Below, piece after piece: positions 20,801 through 60,439 of a DNA stretch of 64,000 nucleotides. Position numbers and translations under genes: made by a program. The notes below the pieces were generated by a model, which was given only the letters and a program-made list of their open reading frames with translations, had not been told where the DNA came from and searched no databases. The stretch spans positions 186,001 to 250,000 of the forward strand of contig JAKADM010000002.1 in the NCBI GenBank assembly GCA_021820525.1, written 5' to 3'. Origin of the DNA: Thermoplasmata archaeon (GTDB lineage Archaea; Thermoplasmatota; Thermoplasmata; Thermoplasmatales; Thermoplasmataceae). Numbering within the stretch: position 1 is the first letter of the stretch; each line of letters begins with the position of its first letter.

Positions 20801-22336
20801 TTATTTTTTTTCGGAAAGTAATATAAAACCTATTCTTGTTAGAATTAAACTCAGTACAAGAACCATGCCCAAAAAGACAGATGGAAAATCGATGGGTGAT
20901 ATGGCCAGAAAGGCCCCAATAATATATGAAGCAATGGGGGAAAGGGCACCAGAAAGGGCCGAAATGAAAAAGATCACAAGTATACCGAGTGTGCCTCCAA
21001 AGGAATATATGTTGATGTTGACAGCATCAACGGGAATTTTTGAAATCATAAAATAAATTGTCAATATGGACGAAAATAGAAAGGCAAGGGAAGCATCAAT
21101 TGAGATCAGGATAAGATATGGAAGGTCATTCATATTTACCCCTATCATAATGATGGTAACAGGAATTGCAAAAAAGAGGAAAATTATGAGGGAAGAAATG
21201 GTCTTTGACAGGACCAGATCCCTGTTTGATATTCTCCATATTCTCATGTTAATGAAACTCTTTCCCTCCATAACAAGAGACTGTATTGCATAAAATGATA
21301 CAGAAACAGAAGTGAGAACAAATATGGAAACATAGGTGTAAATTGGAGGGAAACTTCCAAATCTCCTGTTTACAAAAACTTCAAGAAGGGCAGGAAGGCT
21401 GAAAAATACCGGTATGAAAAATGTGGATATGTTGTTGAAATCCCTCGTTGCTATTTTCAGGTCTTTCGAAATCAGGGATAAGATTACTCCTCTGTATTTT
21501 ACACTGCTTGATTTTTTCCTTTTTCCATTTCCTGTGCCATGACCTTCAAAAATATTATCCAATATTTTATTGGAAATAAAATAGGATGCATAAAGGGAAA
21601 TGAGCAGATAAAACAATGTCCATGAGAAAGATGCGACCAGTGAATCAAAATTTATATGGGGTTGAAAGGCTATAAATTTCATATTGAGTACTGGAAATAT
21701 GAAGTCTAAGGGATATTTCAGGGCAAAATCAAATATTCCAATATAGGAGGGGTAAAAAATTGTAAGGTCAAAAAGTATGAATACGGACGTGAGTGAAAAA
21801 AGTTTCAGGGCATTGAGGAAACCTGAACCTATGTTGCCTCCTCTTTTGCTTAATCCAGCAAGAATAGACAGGCTGCTTCCGAAGAGAAACCCAAGAAAAA
21901 TACATGAAAGCCCCCAGATCATTTGAAGGATAAAGGTTTCAAAATTTCTGTTAAAATAGAAATAAAGAACGACTGGCGGAATATCAAGAAAAAGGGTATA
22001 AAAACCTGTGTTAAGGAACCAGCCCAGAGGTAAGGTAAAACCGTTTTGGTTTGGAAATAGAAGTTTTGAGGGCTCAAGTATTCCCTGATTTTTCAATCCC
22101 TGTATCCACGAGAAGCTGCCAAAGGAGTTTATGCCAAATTCATAAAGAAATATGGAGAATGAACTTGCAGAGATGGATGATGGATTGTGCGAAACCGTAC
22201 CAAAGGTAAGAATTATGGAGAAGACAAGAAAAAGTGCACCATAAATAACACCAGATCTTCTAACCATGGCCCTCATATAGGATGTTGAAAAACCTCTCCT
22301 CTCAAATTCTTCGTTAAACCTTTTGGATAATTTCAA
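20801..22336 (-). CDS. multi-pass membrane protein, probable ABC-2 type permease
   Basis: 511 aa, about 12 hydrophobic segments, 42 bp downstream of the paired ABC ATPase gene. Confidence 0.7.
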   Translation of the reverse strand: MKLSKRFNEEFERRGFSTSYMRAMVRRSGVIYGALFLVFSIILTFGTVSHNPSSISASSFSIFLYEFGINSFGSFSWIQGLKNQGILEPSKLLFPNQNGFTLPLGWFLNTGFYTLFLDIPPVVLYFYFNRNFETFILQMIWGLSCIFLGFLFGSSLSILAGLSKRGGNIGSGFLNALKLFSLTSVFILFDLTIFYPSYIGIFDFALKYPLDFIFPVLNMKFIAFQPHINFDSLVASFSWTLFYLLISLYASYFISNKILDNIFEGHGTGNGKRKKSSSVKYRGVILSLISKDLKIATRDFNNISTFFIPVFFSLPALLEVFVNRRFGSFPPIYTYVSIFVLTSVSVSFYAIQSLVMEGKSFINMRIWRISNRDLVLSKTISSLIIFLFFAIPVTIIMIGVNMNDLPYLILISIDASLAFLFSSILTIYFMISKIPVDAVNINIYSFGGTLGILVIFFISALSGALSPIASYIIGAFLAISPIDFPSVFLGMVLVLSLILTRIGFILLSEKK

Positions 22337-22377
22337 AGCTCCGTAACGATATTCAATGTTAAGCAGATTTGACCTTT

Positions 22378-23112
22378 CTATGAGTCTTCTGATCGAAATA
22401 GGTAATCACCAACCCTTTTGGCTCTGTCAATTAAATCTCCATTTCCTGTAATATTCAGGAATAGCTTCTCAAGAAAACCGCTTTCCCCATCACCCTGAAG
22501 ATCATCCATATTCCCCTCAAGGACCCTTTTACCCTTATTCAGAATCTGCACCCTCTGGCACACAATTTCAGCTATGTCCAGAAGATGGGTTGAAAATATT
22601 ACGAAGTGCCCTGTGGACGTCATCTCCTTTATAACTTCCTTCACAACAATGATGGATGCAGGGTCAAGACCATTGAGAGATTCATCCAGAATAAGTATTT
22701 GGGGATCAGACGCAAGTGCTGATAATATGGATATTTTCTGTTTTGTTCCAAAGGAGAGTGTGCCTATGGGCTTTCCCATAACTCCTGATATGGAAAGGGC
22801 GTCGGCAATTCTTTCCTTTCTTTTGTAATAATCAGTATCAGAATCCTTTCTGACCTCTGCATAAATATCGCAATATTCGTCGCCGGTTAGTGTTTCATAG
22901 AGTACTGGGACCTCAGGAACATAGGAAATGTCGGTACCACTGAATTTTTTATAGTCTTCCACCTCCTTTCCATCAATCATTATGGATCCTGAATCCATTT
23001 TAACAATTCCGGCCATTATTCTCAGGGCAGTGGTCTTACCTGATCCATTGGGCCCCAGTATGCCCTCCACAACACCCGAATTGAATATTAAGTTTAGATT
23101 ATCAAGAGCCAC
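22378..23112 (-). CDS. ABC transporter ATP-binding protein (ORF as given is N-terminally truncated; see finding)
   Basis: Walker A GPNGSGKTT, signature TLSFGTKQK, Walker B ILILDESLNGLDP. Confidence 0.85.
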   Translation of the reverse strand: MALDNLNLIFNSGVVEGILGPNGSGKTTALRIMAGIVKMDSGSIMIDGKEVEDYKKFSGTDISYVPEVPVLYETLTGDEYCDIYAEVRKDSDTDYYKRKERIADALSISGVMGKPIGTLSFGTKQKISILSALASDPQILILDESLNGLDPASIIVVKEVIKEMTSTGHFVIFSTHLLDIAEIVCQRVQILNKGKRVLEGNMDDLQGDGESGFLEKLFLNITGNGDLIDRAKRVGDYLFRSEDS

Positions 23113-55022: not shown

Positions 55023-55395
55023 TTTTCTCTTTAATATTTAAATGAATTTTTTAATCTATTGATATAAATACATAAAACTGACACTGTTATGCCTTAAAAT
55101 CGTCATATGACTAACATTTTATCCATTATTCCTTAAATTGCCTTAGCTTTGGGAGTATTTCATATATTTCCTGTTTTATCAGACTTAAAAAATTAAATAG
55201 CACTTAAAGGAAACGAAATGTGGAATCTTTTTTGAAAAGAGCTGTGTCAAAGAAAATTATTCTGATCGGTATGATCAACGTTAAAAATAGAATCTGCAAG
55301 GGTTTGACCTAAAAGATTTTTTTTATAACCTTGGGTTGGATGTTTTAAGGAGTTTTCACACGTTAAATATATATATACAATTAATATGTTACATT

Positions 55396-56130
55396 GTGCA
55401 AAATATACTTAAGAAGGAAATCAATCTTCTAAATCTTGATATCAGCTTTGAAGATTTTTGTTCTGGACTTGCAAGAATACCATTTATTGGTTCTATAACG
55501 TCAATGATTCTTGTTTGTTCCTTTTTGACTGGTAATGAGAGTATGGAAAAACAAAATGGTACTGATAGCATGATAAATAGCATCTCTCCATTTCAACAAA
55601 TGGAGATAGGTGGAAGCGGCGGCACATACTGTTCCAGGACAACTTATTACGGAGGTTTTTCTTTTTCGTGCTGTATACATGCCAACCCAATATTCAGCGC
55701 AAAAGGCAAAAATGTTATGGAGCATCTTTGTTTAGAAGTATCCCAGCAGGTACTTGTATCCAGGGCTAACGGTTTTCAGTCTTTTTATGTTTTACCTGCA
55801 AAAAATTCAACAGAGATAGGAGTATGTCCGAATATATTTTTGTATTGCAAACCATACTCTTATGGGGTATTTAAAGAGACTGAGGGCGTTGTATACGAAC
55901 CGATATCCCTAAGTTGTCAGGGTTGTGAATTTACATGGAACCCATCTTTTTCAGTATCTCAAACATTTTTTGGTACTCCCACGATTACTTTCAATTTTCT
56001 TTTACAGGTCATAATTCAGCATGACGGGGGCAATGTAAAAATTTATGAATGGGAATCCTTAAATGGAAAAATAGGTATAGATTGGGCAGAAGTGGTGATG
56101 GGTATAATTTCAATTCCAGTCCCATCATAA
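55396..56130 (+). CDS. cysteine-rich exported protein with N-terminal hydrophobic segment (novel)
   Basis: GTG start lies about 25-30 nt after TATA ttaaatatatatata (supplied ORF starts at 55336); hydrophobic ARIPFIGSITSMILVCSFL followed by an 8-Cys domain. Confidence 0.7.
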   Translation: MQNILKKEINLLNLDISFEDFCSGLARIPFIGSITSMILVCSFLTGNESMEKQNGTDSMINSISPFQQMEIGGSGGTYCSRTTYYGGFSFSCCIHANPIFSAKGKNVMEHLCLEVSQQVLVSRANGFQSFYVLPAKNSTEIGVCPNIFLYCKPYSYGVFKETEGVVYEPISLSCQGCEFTWNPSFSVSQTFFGTPTITFNFLLQVIIQHDGGNVKIYEWESLNGKIGIDWAEVVMGIISIPVPS

Positions 56131-56150
56131 TAATTTAAGGGAGAATTCCT

Positions 56151-57023
56151 ATGAAAGTTAAGAAATTTCTGGCTATAAGCATATCACTTCTGACAATAGT
56201 TTCTGGTGTTTTGCTTTTCTATCCAATTATCCATGAGGAATACAGGAGAGATTCCCTGAACAGCAATCCTCTCAATCCTGGAACGGTTTTTAAATACTCT
56301 TTCTATGCATATGCTATTTATACAAAGCAACTTTACCAGACCCATCAACAGTTTACCTGTACCGATACTTCAAATGGAACCCTGACAATTGAAGTCAATC
56401 CAAACTCAACAATCTCTGTAAGTGTTACAGAGACGTCAGTGGTTCCGGGGCATATGGGGAATTATGGATTTAAAGGATATCTTAGTTCAAACAATTGTCT
56501 CATAAAATACTTTCTCAATAATGTTTCGCTTTCATCACCATTCATCCAGATAAATAGCCTTGTGGGAAAGGTATCCAGTTCACAGCACATATTTTGTTAT
56601 CATCGTGATAGATGGGGACAGGGATTATGCTCAGATTGCTGGACTTTGCCAACAGATTTGAACATAATAAATATTCATACCTGCGGAATGAATACAAGCG
56701 AAACATCATACAGTGATAATTTTCCAAACAGACTCTGTTATGACCAGTCAGGAGGAGGTTATAATATACTCACCTATGCCTCCTTAAATGGAAATTTCAG
56801 TCTTGCAAAAACTCTGTTTCCAAATTCTGACGTTTTTCTGGCACAGGGTCTGTCAATCAATCTTTTGAAAACCAATGCAGGTCTCCACCCTCTTGTAAAA
56901 GAATACTATATAAGCATTTATGCATCCTATGTCTTATTCATTTGGGTATTATCAGCACCGGTAATTTATTCCGTAATATACTCGGCAAGAAAAAGGTCAA
57001 ATGGCAGGAGAGGCTTGAAATAG
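56151..57023 (+). CDS. Cys-rich extracytoplasmic domain flanked by N- and C-terminal TM segments
   Basis: TM LAISISLLTIVSGVLLFYPII; 7 Cys in ectodomain; C-terminal TM YASYVLFIWVLSAPVIYSVIY. Confidence 0.75.
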   Translation: MKVKKFLAISISLLTIVSGVLLFYPIIHEEYRRDSLNSNPLNPGTVFKYSFYAYAIYTKQLYQTHQQFTCTDTSNGTLTIEVNPNSTISVSVTETSVVPGHMGNYGFKGYLSSNNCLIKYFLNNVSLSSPFIQINSLVGKVSSSQHIFCYHRDRWGQGLCSDCWTLPTDLNIINIHTCGMNTSETSYSDNFPNRLCYDQSGGGYNILTYASLNGNFSLAKTLFPNSDVFLAQGLSINLLKTNAGLHPLVKEYYISIYASYVLFIWVLSAPVIYSVIYSARKRSNGRRGLK

Positions 57024-57911
57024 ATGTTCATAGAAATTTCAGGAGTGAGGGTACAGTATGCCCAAAATGAATCTCTGTGCAATATAAACCTGCAAATTCC
57101 TGAAGGAATTACGGTCATCATAGGCAGGAATGGTGCTGGAAAGAGCAGTCTAATATCTGTACTTGAAGGCCTGGTGAGAATTGATCGAAGGGAAAATGTT
57201 AGATTTTCAGGGATCCCAGTTTACAAAAAGCCCCATCTGGTCTTCAAGGACGTGGCTTCTATTCCTGAGAAGCCCTTTCCTTTGCTTGGCCCCACAGTGA
57301 AAGACTGGATCAGAATGTATTCTGTTATCAGGGAAATATCTTTTGAAAGAATGAAATTTCTCCTGAACTATTTTGACCTGAACTATTTACTGAGGCAAAA
57401 AAGTAAATTTTTAAGCATGGGAGAAACTCAGCTGGTGGCCGTAATTCTGTGTCTTGCATCAAAGGCCAGATACTTTATTCTTGATGAGCCAAATGCCAAT
57501 TTAGACAGAGAGAATCGCATAAAGCTTTCCAACGTCATAGAAAAAATGAGAGATGAAATGGGAGCATCATTTCTCATAACATCTCACATACTTGATGAAA
57601 TCCTATCCATCGCAGATTCCATAATCATGTTCAGTCGTGACAAAATTTCCAATCCGATGCCAAATGAAATAAAAAAGAAATTTCTAATCCTTAAATCCCT
57701 TGACCCTGAGAGACTTGAGGAAAAAATAAAGGGAAAGATAAAGTATGGAATTCAGGGCAGAGATATAATGATCAGAGACGGGAAACTTGGGGCATTAATG
57801 GCATTGCTTGATGAGGATATTATGGAGCAGATAATCAGCATAAATGCCTATCCAGAATTTATTGAAGGTGAATTTAAAAATGACTCTGAGGAAGAGCATA
57901 AGCACGATTGA
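57024..57911 (+). CDS. ABC transporter ATP-binding protein
   Basis: Walker A IIGRNGAGKSS, signature-like FLSMGETQ, Walker B YFILDEPNANLD, H-loop ITSHILDE. Confidence 0.92.
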   Translation: MFIEISGVRVQYAQNESLCNINLQIPEGITVIIGRNGAGKSSLISVLEGLVRIDRRENVRFSGIPVYKKPHLVFKDVASIPEKPFPLLGPTVKDWIRMYSVIREISFERMKFLLNYFDLNYLLRQKSKFLSMGETQLVAVILCLASKARYFILDEPNANLDRENRIKLSNVIEKMRDEMGASFLITSHILDEILSIADSIIMFSRDKISNPMPNEIKKKFLILKSLDPERLEEKIKGKIKYGIQGRDIMIRDGKLGALMALLDEDIMEQIISINAYPEFIEGEFKNDSEEEHKHD

Positions 57912-58566
57912 ATTTTTGACGAACCGTTTTCAAATCAGGGAACTCACTCTCATACTTTCTCTTTTCTTCATCATATTCGAGGTTTCCTCCGTATTCGGAG
58001 AAAATCATTCCCCAATTCTGTATATATTTATCCTCATACCTTCAACCACCTTGCCCTTTTATGCCTCTCTGTCATCTTTTTCCTTTGGTCAGCGAATAGA
58101 AACAGGTTACATTGGTTTCATCTTTACAATGCCAGTAAGGAGACAGATAATGCTGAGCGCAATGGCTCTCTTTGAAATTCTGATCGTTCCAACCTACATA
58201 TGGGCAGCTGGTTTTCTCATAATTTATCTTAATTCATTCGTTTTTCCCCTTAATCTCGTGATTTACGGATGGCTCCTTTTAGTGTCATGGTTTGCGTTCA
58301 CGATATCTCTTGGGAGGCTTTATGGGGCCGTATCAAGAAATGGTTTAATTTCCTTTGTACTCACCTTTGGTACAATTCTGGCTATTTTCAATATTGATGG
58401 AAACAAAGAATTAAGTAGATTCATTCTCCTTTTTATTTCCAATAAATTCTTTATATTGTCTTCACAGCACATATTCTTGCTGTTCATCTCACTTGCAGTT
58501 TCAGCTGTCCTTATAGCTGTATCCAATTTTATAACACTTCACTCAGACCTGAAGAGTGGCAGGTGA
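57880..58566 (+). CDS. ABC-2 type permease-like membrane protein
   Basis: Probable ATG at 57880 (supplied ORF 57844); 6 hydrophobic segments; overlaps the ATPase gene. Confidence 0.8.
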   Translation: MTLRKSISTIEFLTNRFQIRELTLILSLFFIIFEVSSVFGENHSPILYIFILIPSTTLPFYASLSSFSFGQRIETGYIGFIFTMPVRRQIMLSAMALFEILIVPTYIWAAGFLIIYLNSFVFPLNLVIYGWLLLVSWFAFTISLGRLYGAVSRNGLISFVLTFGTILAIFNIDGNKELSRFILLFISNKFFILSSQHIFLLFISLAVSAVLIAVSNFITLHSDLKSGR

Positions 58567-59164
58567 GGAAATGTTCCATTTCAAAAAATCAATCCTCATT
58601 ATGATTGCCCTTGGTATTATTCTCATATCAGTGTTTAATTACTCAGGATCGGTTTCCGGAAACATTTCAATGAAAGAAAATGTTTCCGGGGAGTTTTGTA
58701 ATTATAACATCAGCTCTAGCGATTACGTTTCAATTTCATTTATTTCATATGGCTATTCTGCCACTGCCTCAATTTATAACCCATTTTTTCAGGAAAATGT
58801 TAAAAATACATCGGCCTACATTGTTCAGGATTTTGCCCTTTTGAAGAGGGTTTCAAACGGTTCATATGTGCCAGTCAGCCAGATTTATCTCAACATGACA
58901 GGTATATCCATATGCTCTACCGAACTGAATCTAACACCTGGATCATACAAACTGGAAATGTCTATGATTTTTGATTTCACAAACATTTCCAAACTTGTCA
59001 ATTTTACTAACGAATCAAACTTACACAGTTATGTGGTTCTCAGGCTGGGATTTTCAGCGGTGCTATTCTACCTTTCAGTATTCGATGTTTCAGGTCTTAT
59101 GCTACTCATTGCAATGGCATATGTGTGGCATAGGAGAGATCTGAAACATGATATTTTTAAATAA
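58556..59164 (+). CDS. membrane protein with extracytoplasmic beta-rich domain and C-terminal TM
   Basis: Overlaps permease; N-terminal TM SILIMIALGIILISVFNYSG; C-terminal TM AVLFYLSVFDVSGLMLLIAMAYVW. Confidence 0.75.
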   Translation: MAGEEMFHFKKSILIMIALGIILISVFNYSGSVSGNISMKENVSGEFCNYNISSSDYVSISFISYGYSATASIYNPFFQENVKNTSAYIVQDFALLKRVSNGSYVPVSQIYLNMTGISICSTELNLTPGSYKLEMSMIFDFTNISKLVNFTNESNLHSYVVLRLGFSAVLFYLSVFDVSGLMLLIAMAYVWHRRDLKHDIFK

Positions 59165-59328
59165 TGATTCTGTGGCTGCGTTTTCATGGTTTAATTCATA
59201 TCCATTTTTTAATTTTACATTCCAAATTGGTTTCAGGGTATTTTATATGATGTAACTTGGCTAAAATTGTTATGCTCTTTTCCACACATGAATGGAGATC
59301 TCAATCGATGGGCAGTTTTAAGGAACAG

Positions 59329-60439
59329 GACATAATAGTCTTTCATACCTGAAACTATAGTCTATTACTAAAATTGTTATACTTTTATCATTTACATTCA
59401 AATGGCCAAAACGGAAATGTATCCCATCGAAAGAAAGATGGGAGATGATAATCTGAACAGGCTGATCAGGAGCCTTGAAAGAAGCACACAGGACCTGAAT
59501 AGGCTTTTCTTCATCAGGTACGATATGATGATGATTCTGTTGAATCAGCATCAAGAAAGATCGGCGTAACAAAGATGATGGGGTATCTCTGGCAGAAGAG
59601 ATGGAAACATGACGGATACAGGGGGCTGATACAGAGATATGCAAGGAAGGGGCCATCAAAGATGTCCCCCCGTCCAGCTGAAGGAACTGAAGGAGAAACT
59701 GCATGAAGGGCATTTCAAAATATCACAGGTAAAAGATATGATAAGGGATGATTATGGAATTCAGTACGCGATGAAGCAGGTATGGGTCATACTGAAGAAG
59801 ATGGGCATGAAGCATGCAAAACCATATCCCCATGATAAGAGAAGACCAGGGAATGGTGAGGATATTCTAAAAAAACTCAGGCAAAGTATCCATAAAGGAA
59901 TCCGTTATTGGATTCCTTTATGAGTCTGAGCCGCAGACAACAGTCAACACTGTAAGGTTTTGGTCTTACATGAAGCCTTAGATAATCGGGGTAATTCCAA
60001 AAACATGGCAAATACATTGGGTTTCTATTCACTCAATGGAAAGAGAGCGTTGTTGATTTTCAGGATCATTCAAGGAAGGAAAACGTCATAGTTTTCATAA
60101 ATAAGATAAGGGAAAAGAATCCTGAAAAGGTAATAATCATAATACTGGACAAATTTAGATCACATCTTTCAAAATTGGTTGTTGAAACTGCAGTAATGCT
60201 GAATATCAAAATGATATTCCTTCCCCTGTGTATTCTCCTGATCTCAATCCTGTAGAATTCATATGGAAGAGTGTCAGGAGATCTGTATCCATTGCTCCAA
60301 TAGATTGAGAAGGCGATCTGAAAGACAGGATAAGGAAGGGTTTTGTGAGTCTCTCAGGAAAACTGACATTTGCAAAAAGATAGGCAGAGAAATTCATGGA
60401 TACAAGTATAATAGTGCAGGTAATTGACTATAATATGTC
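59329..60439 (+). mobile_element. decayed IS630-like insertion sequence
   Basis: Imperfect terminal inverted repeat gacataatagtc (left) / gactataatatgtc (right); internal transposase fragments; size about 1.1 kb. Confidence 0.7.
59402..60381 (+). pseudogene. IS630-like transposase, multiple frameshifts
   Basis: HTH part MAKTEMYPIERKMGDDNLNRLIRSLER... and KKMGMKHAKPYPHDKRRP; DDE part IIIILDKFRSHLSK...NIKMIFLP / YSPDLNPVEFIWKSVRRSV split across frames. Confidence 0.8.

Follow-up and report, generated by a model that had tools for sequence, protein, structure and literature searches.

What could hold together five genes that encode a leader-bearing protein of no recognised family, two bitopic membrane proteins and an ATP-binding cassette (ABC) transporter, and that are inherited as a unit in an order of acid-loving, wall-less archaea? 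The cassette in question occupies positions 55396-59164 (+ strand) of a 64,000-nucleotide (nt) stretch of the draft genome of a Thermoplasmata archaeon (Thermoplasmatales, Thermoplasmataceae; NCBI GenBank assembly GCA_021820525.1, contig JAKADM010000002.1, forward-strand positions 186,001 to 250,000), hereafter the window, and consists of co-directional genes in the order g1-g2-ATPase-permease-g5, the ATPase and permease being g3 and g4. We consider it about an even bet (probability roughly 0.5) that g1 is a secreted, archaeocin-like antagonistic protein and that g2-g5 form a self-immunity or resistance module rather than a dedicated g1 exporter. We infer the immunity role because g2-g5 are retained without g1: in eight loci all four are intact and g1 is broken or absent. 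Below, compared loci are labelled L and compared genomes G, with G000 the window's own genome. The features of the cassette are as follows:

55363..55377, + strand: TATA-box-like promoter element ttaaatatatatata, ~20 nt 5' of the g1 start, read from the sequence
55396..56130, + strand: g1, 244 residues from GTG; polar leader, one hydrophobic segment, Gly-rich linker and a predicted extracellular variable domain with 8 Cys
55396..55527, + strand: g1 leader (residues 1-24) and hydrophobic segment (about residues 25-44), from alignment
55609..55623, + strand: Gly-rich linker GGSGG, counterpart in the alignments of the ...P-x-M-I-x-PPGGGGG... linker of most homologues
56151..57023, + strand: g2, 290 residues, bitopic, with a beta-rich ectodomain between two transmembrane helices (AlphaFold2)
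57024..57911, + strand: g3, ABC ATPase with Walker A GRNGAGKSS, signature LSMGE, Walker B FILDEP and H-loop TSH
57880..58566, + strand: g4, 228 residues, ABC permease with six transmembrane segments, by hydropathy and position; 32-nt overlap with g3
58571..59164, + strand: g5, 197 residues, bitopic, one transmembrane segment at each end, as in g2

Conservation and distribution of the cassette

The gaps between the five genes (20, 0, -32 and +4 nt) bear out an earlier note, made from the letters of the window, which had described co-directional genes with tiny gaps or overlaps. The order g1-g2-ATPase-permease-g5 recurs in about 20 complete loci, one of which is a paralogue within the genome of the window, and homologues of the five genes thus co-occur in the same order in other Thermoplasmata. 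The supposition that the genes form one linked unit is strengthened by their co-inheritance, with pairwise distances across 18 cassettes agreeing between all five proteins (r 0.87-0.95, Mantel p 0.0005). The gene neighbourhood is conserved in relatives and no homology to a characterised system emerged, two points on which the earlier proposal could have failed.

With g2 as query, 15 of 61 genomes from relatives gave matches, and a profile search across Thermoplasmatales put the number of sampled genomes with a g2 homologue at 32 of 117. Samples of 400 genomes from the class and 390 from the phylum yielded none outside Thermoplasmatales, and none was found in viral contigs or plasmids. Within the order the cassettes are patchy and repeated. 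The window's own genome holds a second complete cassette (L004:5172-8951, G000:C16) beside electron-transfer-flavoprotein-like genes, and another genome (G024) holds four complete g1-g5 cassettes. G009, the complete genome from the window's genus and probably Cuniculiplasma divulgatum, carries one (L040). The g2 tree groups cassettes across genera, placing L004 with L078 from another genus, and L041, from the window's genus, among other genera. The window cassette adjoins an M13 peptidase gene whose left flank is common to G010, a genome without the cassette at that site. The draft genome of the window is nearest to Cuniculiplasma and shares 92% identity in g2 with KMA_Bin18.

Loss of g1 and retention of g2-g5

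Each locus was read in six frames for intact and broken genes. Among the eight loci with intact g2-g5, g1 contains a transposase open reading frame (ORF) in L038 and an in-frame stop within the hydrophobic segment in the complete genome of L035; it is frameshifted in L045 and L079, fragmented in L047 and absent from L041, L042 and L080. Wherever exactly one gene of the cassette is missing, that gene is g1. As g1 makes up ~19% of the coding length, all eight single losses would naively fall in it with a probability of about 2e-6, a figure limited by the chance that the losses are not all independent and that draft-genome frameshifts are errors. They are scattered over different branches of the g2 tree. 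In the g1-less loci L041 and L042, omega (the ratio of nonsynonymous to synonymous rates) of g2-g5 against other loci is 0.10-0.40, and g2-g5 without g1 are thus under purifying selection where tested.

The reverse situation, g1 away from g2, gave no credible case with g1 profiles in the 117 genomes; we took one match, in an 1820-residue frame of G105 (E 1e-6), to be spurious. Loci with g2 and without g1 also include L046, L085 and L032, the last with a g1 remnant and g2 as its only intact gene. At the site orthologous to L004, G006 (L083) retains only the g1 leader and a frameshifted g2, and G032 carries a g1 with a stop on another contig (L199) and an interrupted g3 (L044).

Substitution rates differ within the cassette when the window is compared with its orthologue L028: g1 has 75% identity and omega 0.71-0.77, g2-g5 have 91-93% identity and omega 0.2-0.5, and the neighbouring M13 peptidase has omega 0.12-0.19. 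The nonsynonymous excess of g1 over g2-g5 in this pair is significant (Fisher p=1.6e-4). The fast change of g1 in the window lineage may reflect diversification or relaxed constraint.

A proposed antagonistic protein with a self-immunity module

How these observations could fit together is suggested by the predicted topologies. Expressed from its own promoter, g1 would use its leader and hydrophobic segment to enter or cross the membrane. Its variable extracellular domain would act on other wall-less Thermoplasmatales cells, the protein being either released or displayed at the cell surface or on vesicles. The two bitopic proteins, g2 and g5, would assemble with the ABC pump g3-g4 into a membrane complex that shields the producer: it would capture g1 protein on the outside and drive it out of the membrane, with g2 proposed as the immunity protein. 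If g1 is a weapon and g2-g5 the shield against it, then g1 alone should be dispensable, g2-g5 should persist, g1 may evolve fast in one lineage, and cassettes should be patchy and multiple. Restriction to one order would also be as expected, because weapons are aimed at close kin. Cuniculiplasma and most of the order have no S-layer (PMC5155288, PMC12448462), which leaves their membrane exposed. We infer g1 export, toxicity, target, complex formation and the substrate of the pump, and with toxicity the interpretation steps beyond the evolutionary patterns.

Several observations weigh against this interpretation. The g1 product, a putative antagonist, has no homology to any toxin. The single frameshifts in draft metagenome-assembled genomes (L045 and L079) could be sequencing errors. 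In the decaying cassette L203:4711-6471 (G087), g1 is intact, g2 is broken by a stop and the ATPase is truncated, a counterexample to g1 always decaying first. L088 and L092 keep g1 and g2 without ABC genes and, together with the truncated ATPase of L203, indicate that the pump is not always needed. Nor is fast g1 evolution universal: omega of g1 is 0.15 in the pair L045/L077, and the nearly identical pair L202/L087 gives 0.58 for g1 against 0.5.

Alternative explanations

The layout was likened earlier to antimicrobial or immunity-export systems with a dedicated ABC transporter for the Cys-rich product. Evolutionary behaviour fits the antagonism and immunity part of that comparison, whereas dedicated export of g1 is disfavoured. 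A biogenesis or export module, in which the ABC transporter and bitopic proteins export, fold or anchor g1 as a non-toxic surface or adhesion protein, would account for the conserved order with g1 first and for the correlation of g1 distances with those of g2-g5 (r 0.87-0.92), and the shared g1 leader could be its recognition signal. Such a module predicts that g2-g5 decay without g1, and it is therefore disfavoured, since loci with g1 broken or absent keep g2-g5 whole and, where this was tested, under purifying selection. The ABC-less loci L088 and L092, which keep g1, speak against it as well, and the hydrophobic segment near the g1 N-terminus points to a possible general secretion route. 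We regard this explanation as unlikely, though it deserves to be kept in view; it is possible that g2-g5 have another substrate.

That g2-g5 can stand alone and that g2 and g5 face outward would equally suit a pump that confers resistance to membrane-active compounds or foreign peptides, in which g1 would be an accessory extracellular sensor or decoy, and the best NCBIfam model of g3 is a lantibiotic-protection ATPase, though at 85 of the required 310 bits. This similarity is not repeated in the L004 paralogue, whose best model is TIGR03864; the cassette encodes no regulator, g1 is not found without g2, and in the window pair g1 is the fastest-evolving member, unlike a typical sensor. A resistance pump with such an accessory g1 therefore strikes us as rather doubtful. 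Several of the top, non-significant fold matches of the g2 ectodomain bind lipids or hydrophobic ligands, which would accord with a lipid or envelope-component transporter that has g2 and g5 as carriers and g1 as a structural surface component. No g2 fold match reached E 1e-3, however, the listed template modelling (TM) scores are mostly below 0.3, and most genomes of the order have no cassette, which is unexpected for envelope housekeeping; a transporter of this kind is very improbable.

Properties of the gene products

The g1 start is most likely the GTG at 55396, preferred because it matches the ATG start and 244-residue length of the L028 orthologue. The TATA reported earlier upstream of g1 is present, and similar runs lie ~20-35 nt 5' of the g1 start in ~13 of 16 homologous loci (by eye). 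The g1 transcript is probably leaderless, because the GTG stands only ~20 nt behind the TATA-like run. Homologues of g1 are 194-270 residues long and fall into three clades that hhalign links at the profile level (probabilities 97 and 96). They keep the leader, with a near-invariant D20 in the 16 aligned rows, the hydrophobic segment, a C-terminal hydrophobic/aromatic tail and, in most members, the Gly-rich linker, a possible processing or flexible site.

The 8 Cys of the g1 ectodomain, including CC and CQGC, and the 7 Cys of g2 are present as the earlier note had listed them. That a Cys-rich, disulfide-bonded product is the defining trait was not borne out and was rejected: Cys counts range from 0 to 10 across g1 homologues and from 0 to 8 across g2 homologues, and Cys positions differ even between the window and the 75%-identical L028 g1. 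Cys richness is, on this comparison, a local feature of the window cassette.

Window g1 matched no Pfam, NCBIfam or PADLOC model, Pfam matches among 21 g1 homologues were confined to single members at chance level, and a PDB sequence search with the g1 profile gave nothing useful. An AlphaFold2 model of the window protein, made with the 21 homologues as input (predicted local distance difference test, pLDDT, 40), left only a helical N-terminal region and a strand tendency readable. By contrast with g1 (pLDDT 40), the g2 model scored pLDDT 81.9 with a predicted TM score of 0.77, and has helices at residues 3-34 and 250-289 and strands across 46-241. Foldseek searches of this model against PDB and viral models gave no match at E <= 1e-3; several of the top non-significant ectodomain matches were lipid- or hydrophobic-ligand half-barrels (LolA3, DUF1329, MucB, lipovitellin), of which the recurring LolA-like ones are no more than a weak hint. 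In one of 23 g2 members an Ank_5 hit fell below the cut-off (E 0.0034) and was rejected as chance, and PDB sequence searches with the g2 profile were not useful.

The g3 product is an ABC exporter ATPase with Walker A and B motifs, signature and H-loop all present (PF00005, 4e-16, 60 bits; cut-off 25). As described before, g5 is bitopic like g2, although homology between the two was not detectable (hhalign 14% probability). In Pfam, NCBIfam and PADLOC, g2, g4 and g5 matched no family, which upholds the view that g1, g2 and g5 belong to none that is known and extends it to g4. The PADLOC scan gave generic ATPase matches and none for g1, g2, g4 or g5, leaving the cassette outside the anti-phage defence systems modelled there.

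Two observations concern other parts of the window. Transposase-like remnants (59318-59923; HTH_33 match below cut-off) lie directly 3' of the cassette, and a separate ABC ATPase with an adjoining 511-residue membrane protein (20801-23112, minus strand) stands outside the cassette family.

A second cassette family

A related arrangement was found at L047:13439-16485 (G027), where h1-h4 encode a leader-transmembrane-ectodomain protein, a bitopic protein, an ABC ATPase and a permease in the same order; its relatives are L190-L198 and L200, with the permease gene of L190 interrupted by a transposase. Homologues of h2 were found in 10 of the 117 Thermoplasmatales genomes, and most of them have the same genes around them. 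The h2 and g2 proteins are remote homologues (hhalign 96.6%, E 6e-10), whereas h1 and g1 are not convincingly related (37%). No g5 was detected in the h1-h4 cassettes, and a PDB sequence search with the h2 profile found nothing useful.

Directly 3' of an orphan g2 that adjoins an insertion sequence element, L201:7217-8425 (G083) encodes a possible alternative effector, a 402-residue protein whose leader resembles that of g1 and whose NlpC/P60-like match is weak. A leader profile built without this protein matched it as the sole non-g1 hit among 6145 ORFs of the compared loci (E 0.001, with hits weaker than about E 1e-3 discounted as noise); as one example with a weak score, the link is a lead and not a result. 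Together with the second cassette family it hints at a larger modular class. One could imagine a polymorphic antagonism system of wall-less archaea in which a shared leader and membrane segment carry interchangeable extracellular effector domains (beta-rich g1 domains, unrelated-looking h1 domains and the NlpC/P60-like domain of L201), each paired with a bitopic immunity protein from a single remote g2/h2 superfamily and with the ABC pump optional; we hold this broader scheme to be speculative and rather unlikely.

Another genome, G089, has two arrays (L095:6182-9523 and L096:5726-9003) of three related-looking surface proteins of about 530, 290 and 270 residues with near-identical N-termini, which suggests a paralogous variable surface family.

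Comparison with known systems

An archaeocin or bacteriocin locus has an exported product with linked immunity genes; the cassette has a leader with a hydrophobic segment and linked membrane and ABC genes, for which export and immunity are putative roles. In size and localisation, compared by description only, the g1 products (194-270 residues, N-terminal hydrophobic segment) resemble the sulfolobicins SulA/SulB of Sulfolobus, archaeal protein antimicrobials of 20-22 kDa that are membrane- and vesicle-associated and aimed at close relatives (PMC5733018). The sulfolobicin genes are named sulA, sulB and sulC, with no mention of an ABC cassette (PMC3718332). Sulfolobicins need two secreted proteins, whereas each cassette here has one such protein. 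Behaviour, as an analogy and not as homology, is shared with the Mr10/AS-48 EFGH systems of enterococci, whose ABC immunity transporter has several components and is also found in orphan form where the bacteriocin is missing (PMC10598978), just as g2-g5 occur without intact g1 in eight loci. Those systems are bacterial, their bacteriocins are small leaderless or circular peptides, and g2, g4 and g5 have no Pfam or NCBIfam match.

Among NCBIfam models, the window ATPase scores highest with the lantibiotic-protection model TIGR03740 (LanFEG), but its 85 bits are far under the curated cut-off of 310. LanFEG has two permease genes, whereas one permease ORF per cassette is found here, and two bitopic ectodomain proteins stand in place of a lipoprotein. 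Lactococcin 972-type loci encode, in linkage with a secreted bacterial bacteriocin, a membrane protein and an ABC ATPase; g1, g2, g4 and g5 match no Pfam or NCBIfam family of that system, and the g1 product was not matched by curated halocin or lactococcin 972 models. By function the cassette would be an archaeocin-type locus if our interpretation holds, and by sequence it falls in none of the families tested. Makarova et al. (2019, mBio 10:e00715-19), who surveyed toxins and antimicrobial peptides of archaea, may already have listed some of the proteins described here as candidates.

Implications for Thermoplasmatales

If our interpretation is right, the two kinds of cassette would define previously unannotated families for g1, g2, g4, g5, h1 and h2. 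In the literature that we found, no bacteriocin is described for Thermoplasmatales; antiSMASH and BACTIBASE analyses of the E-plasma genome gave no bacteriocin match, and its authors still suspected that bacteriocins could matter (PMC10354927). If g1 is indeed an antagonistic protein and g2-g5 protect against it, Thermoplasmatales would have a widespread and diversified system of antagonism and immunity, archaeal warfare would become testable in cultured Cuniculiplasma-like organisms with exposed membranes, and the loci that keep g2-g5 without g1 would be archaeal examples of immune non-producers.

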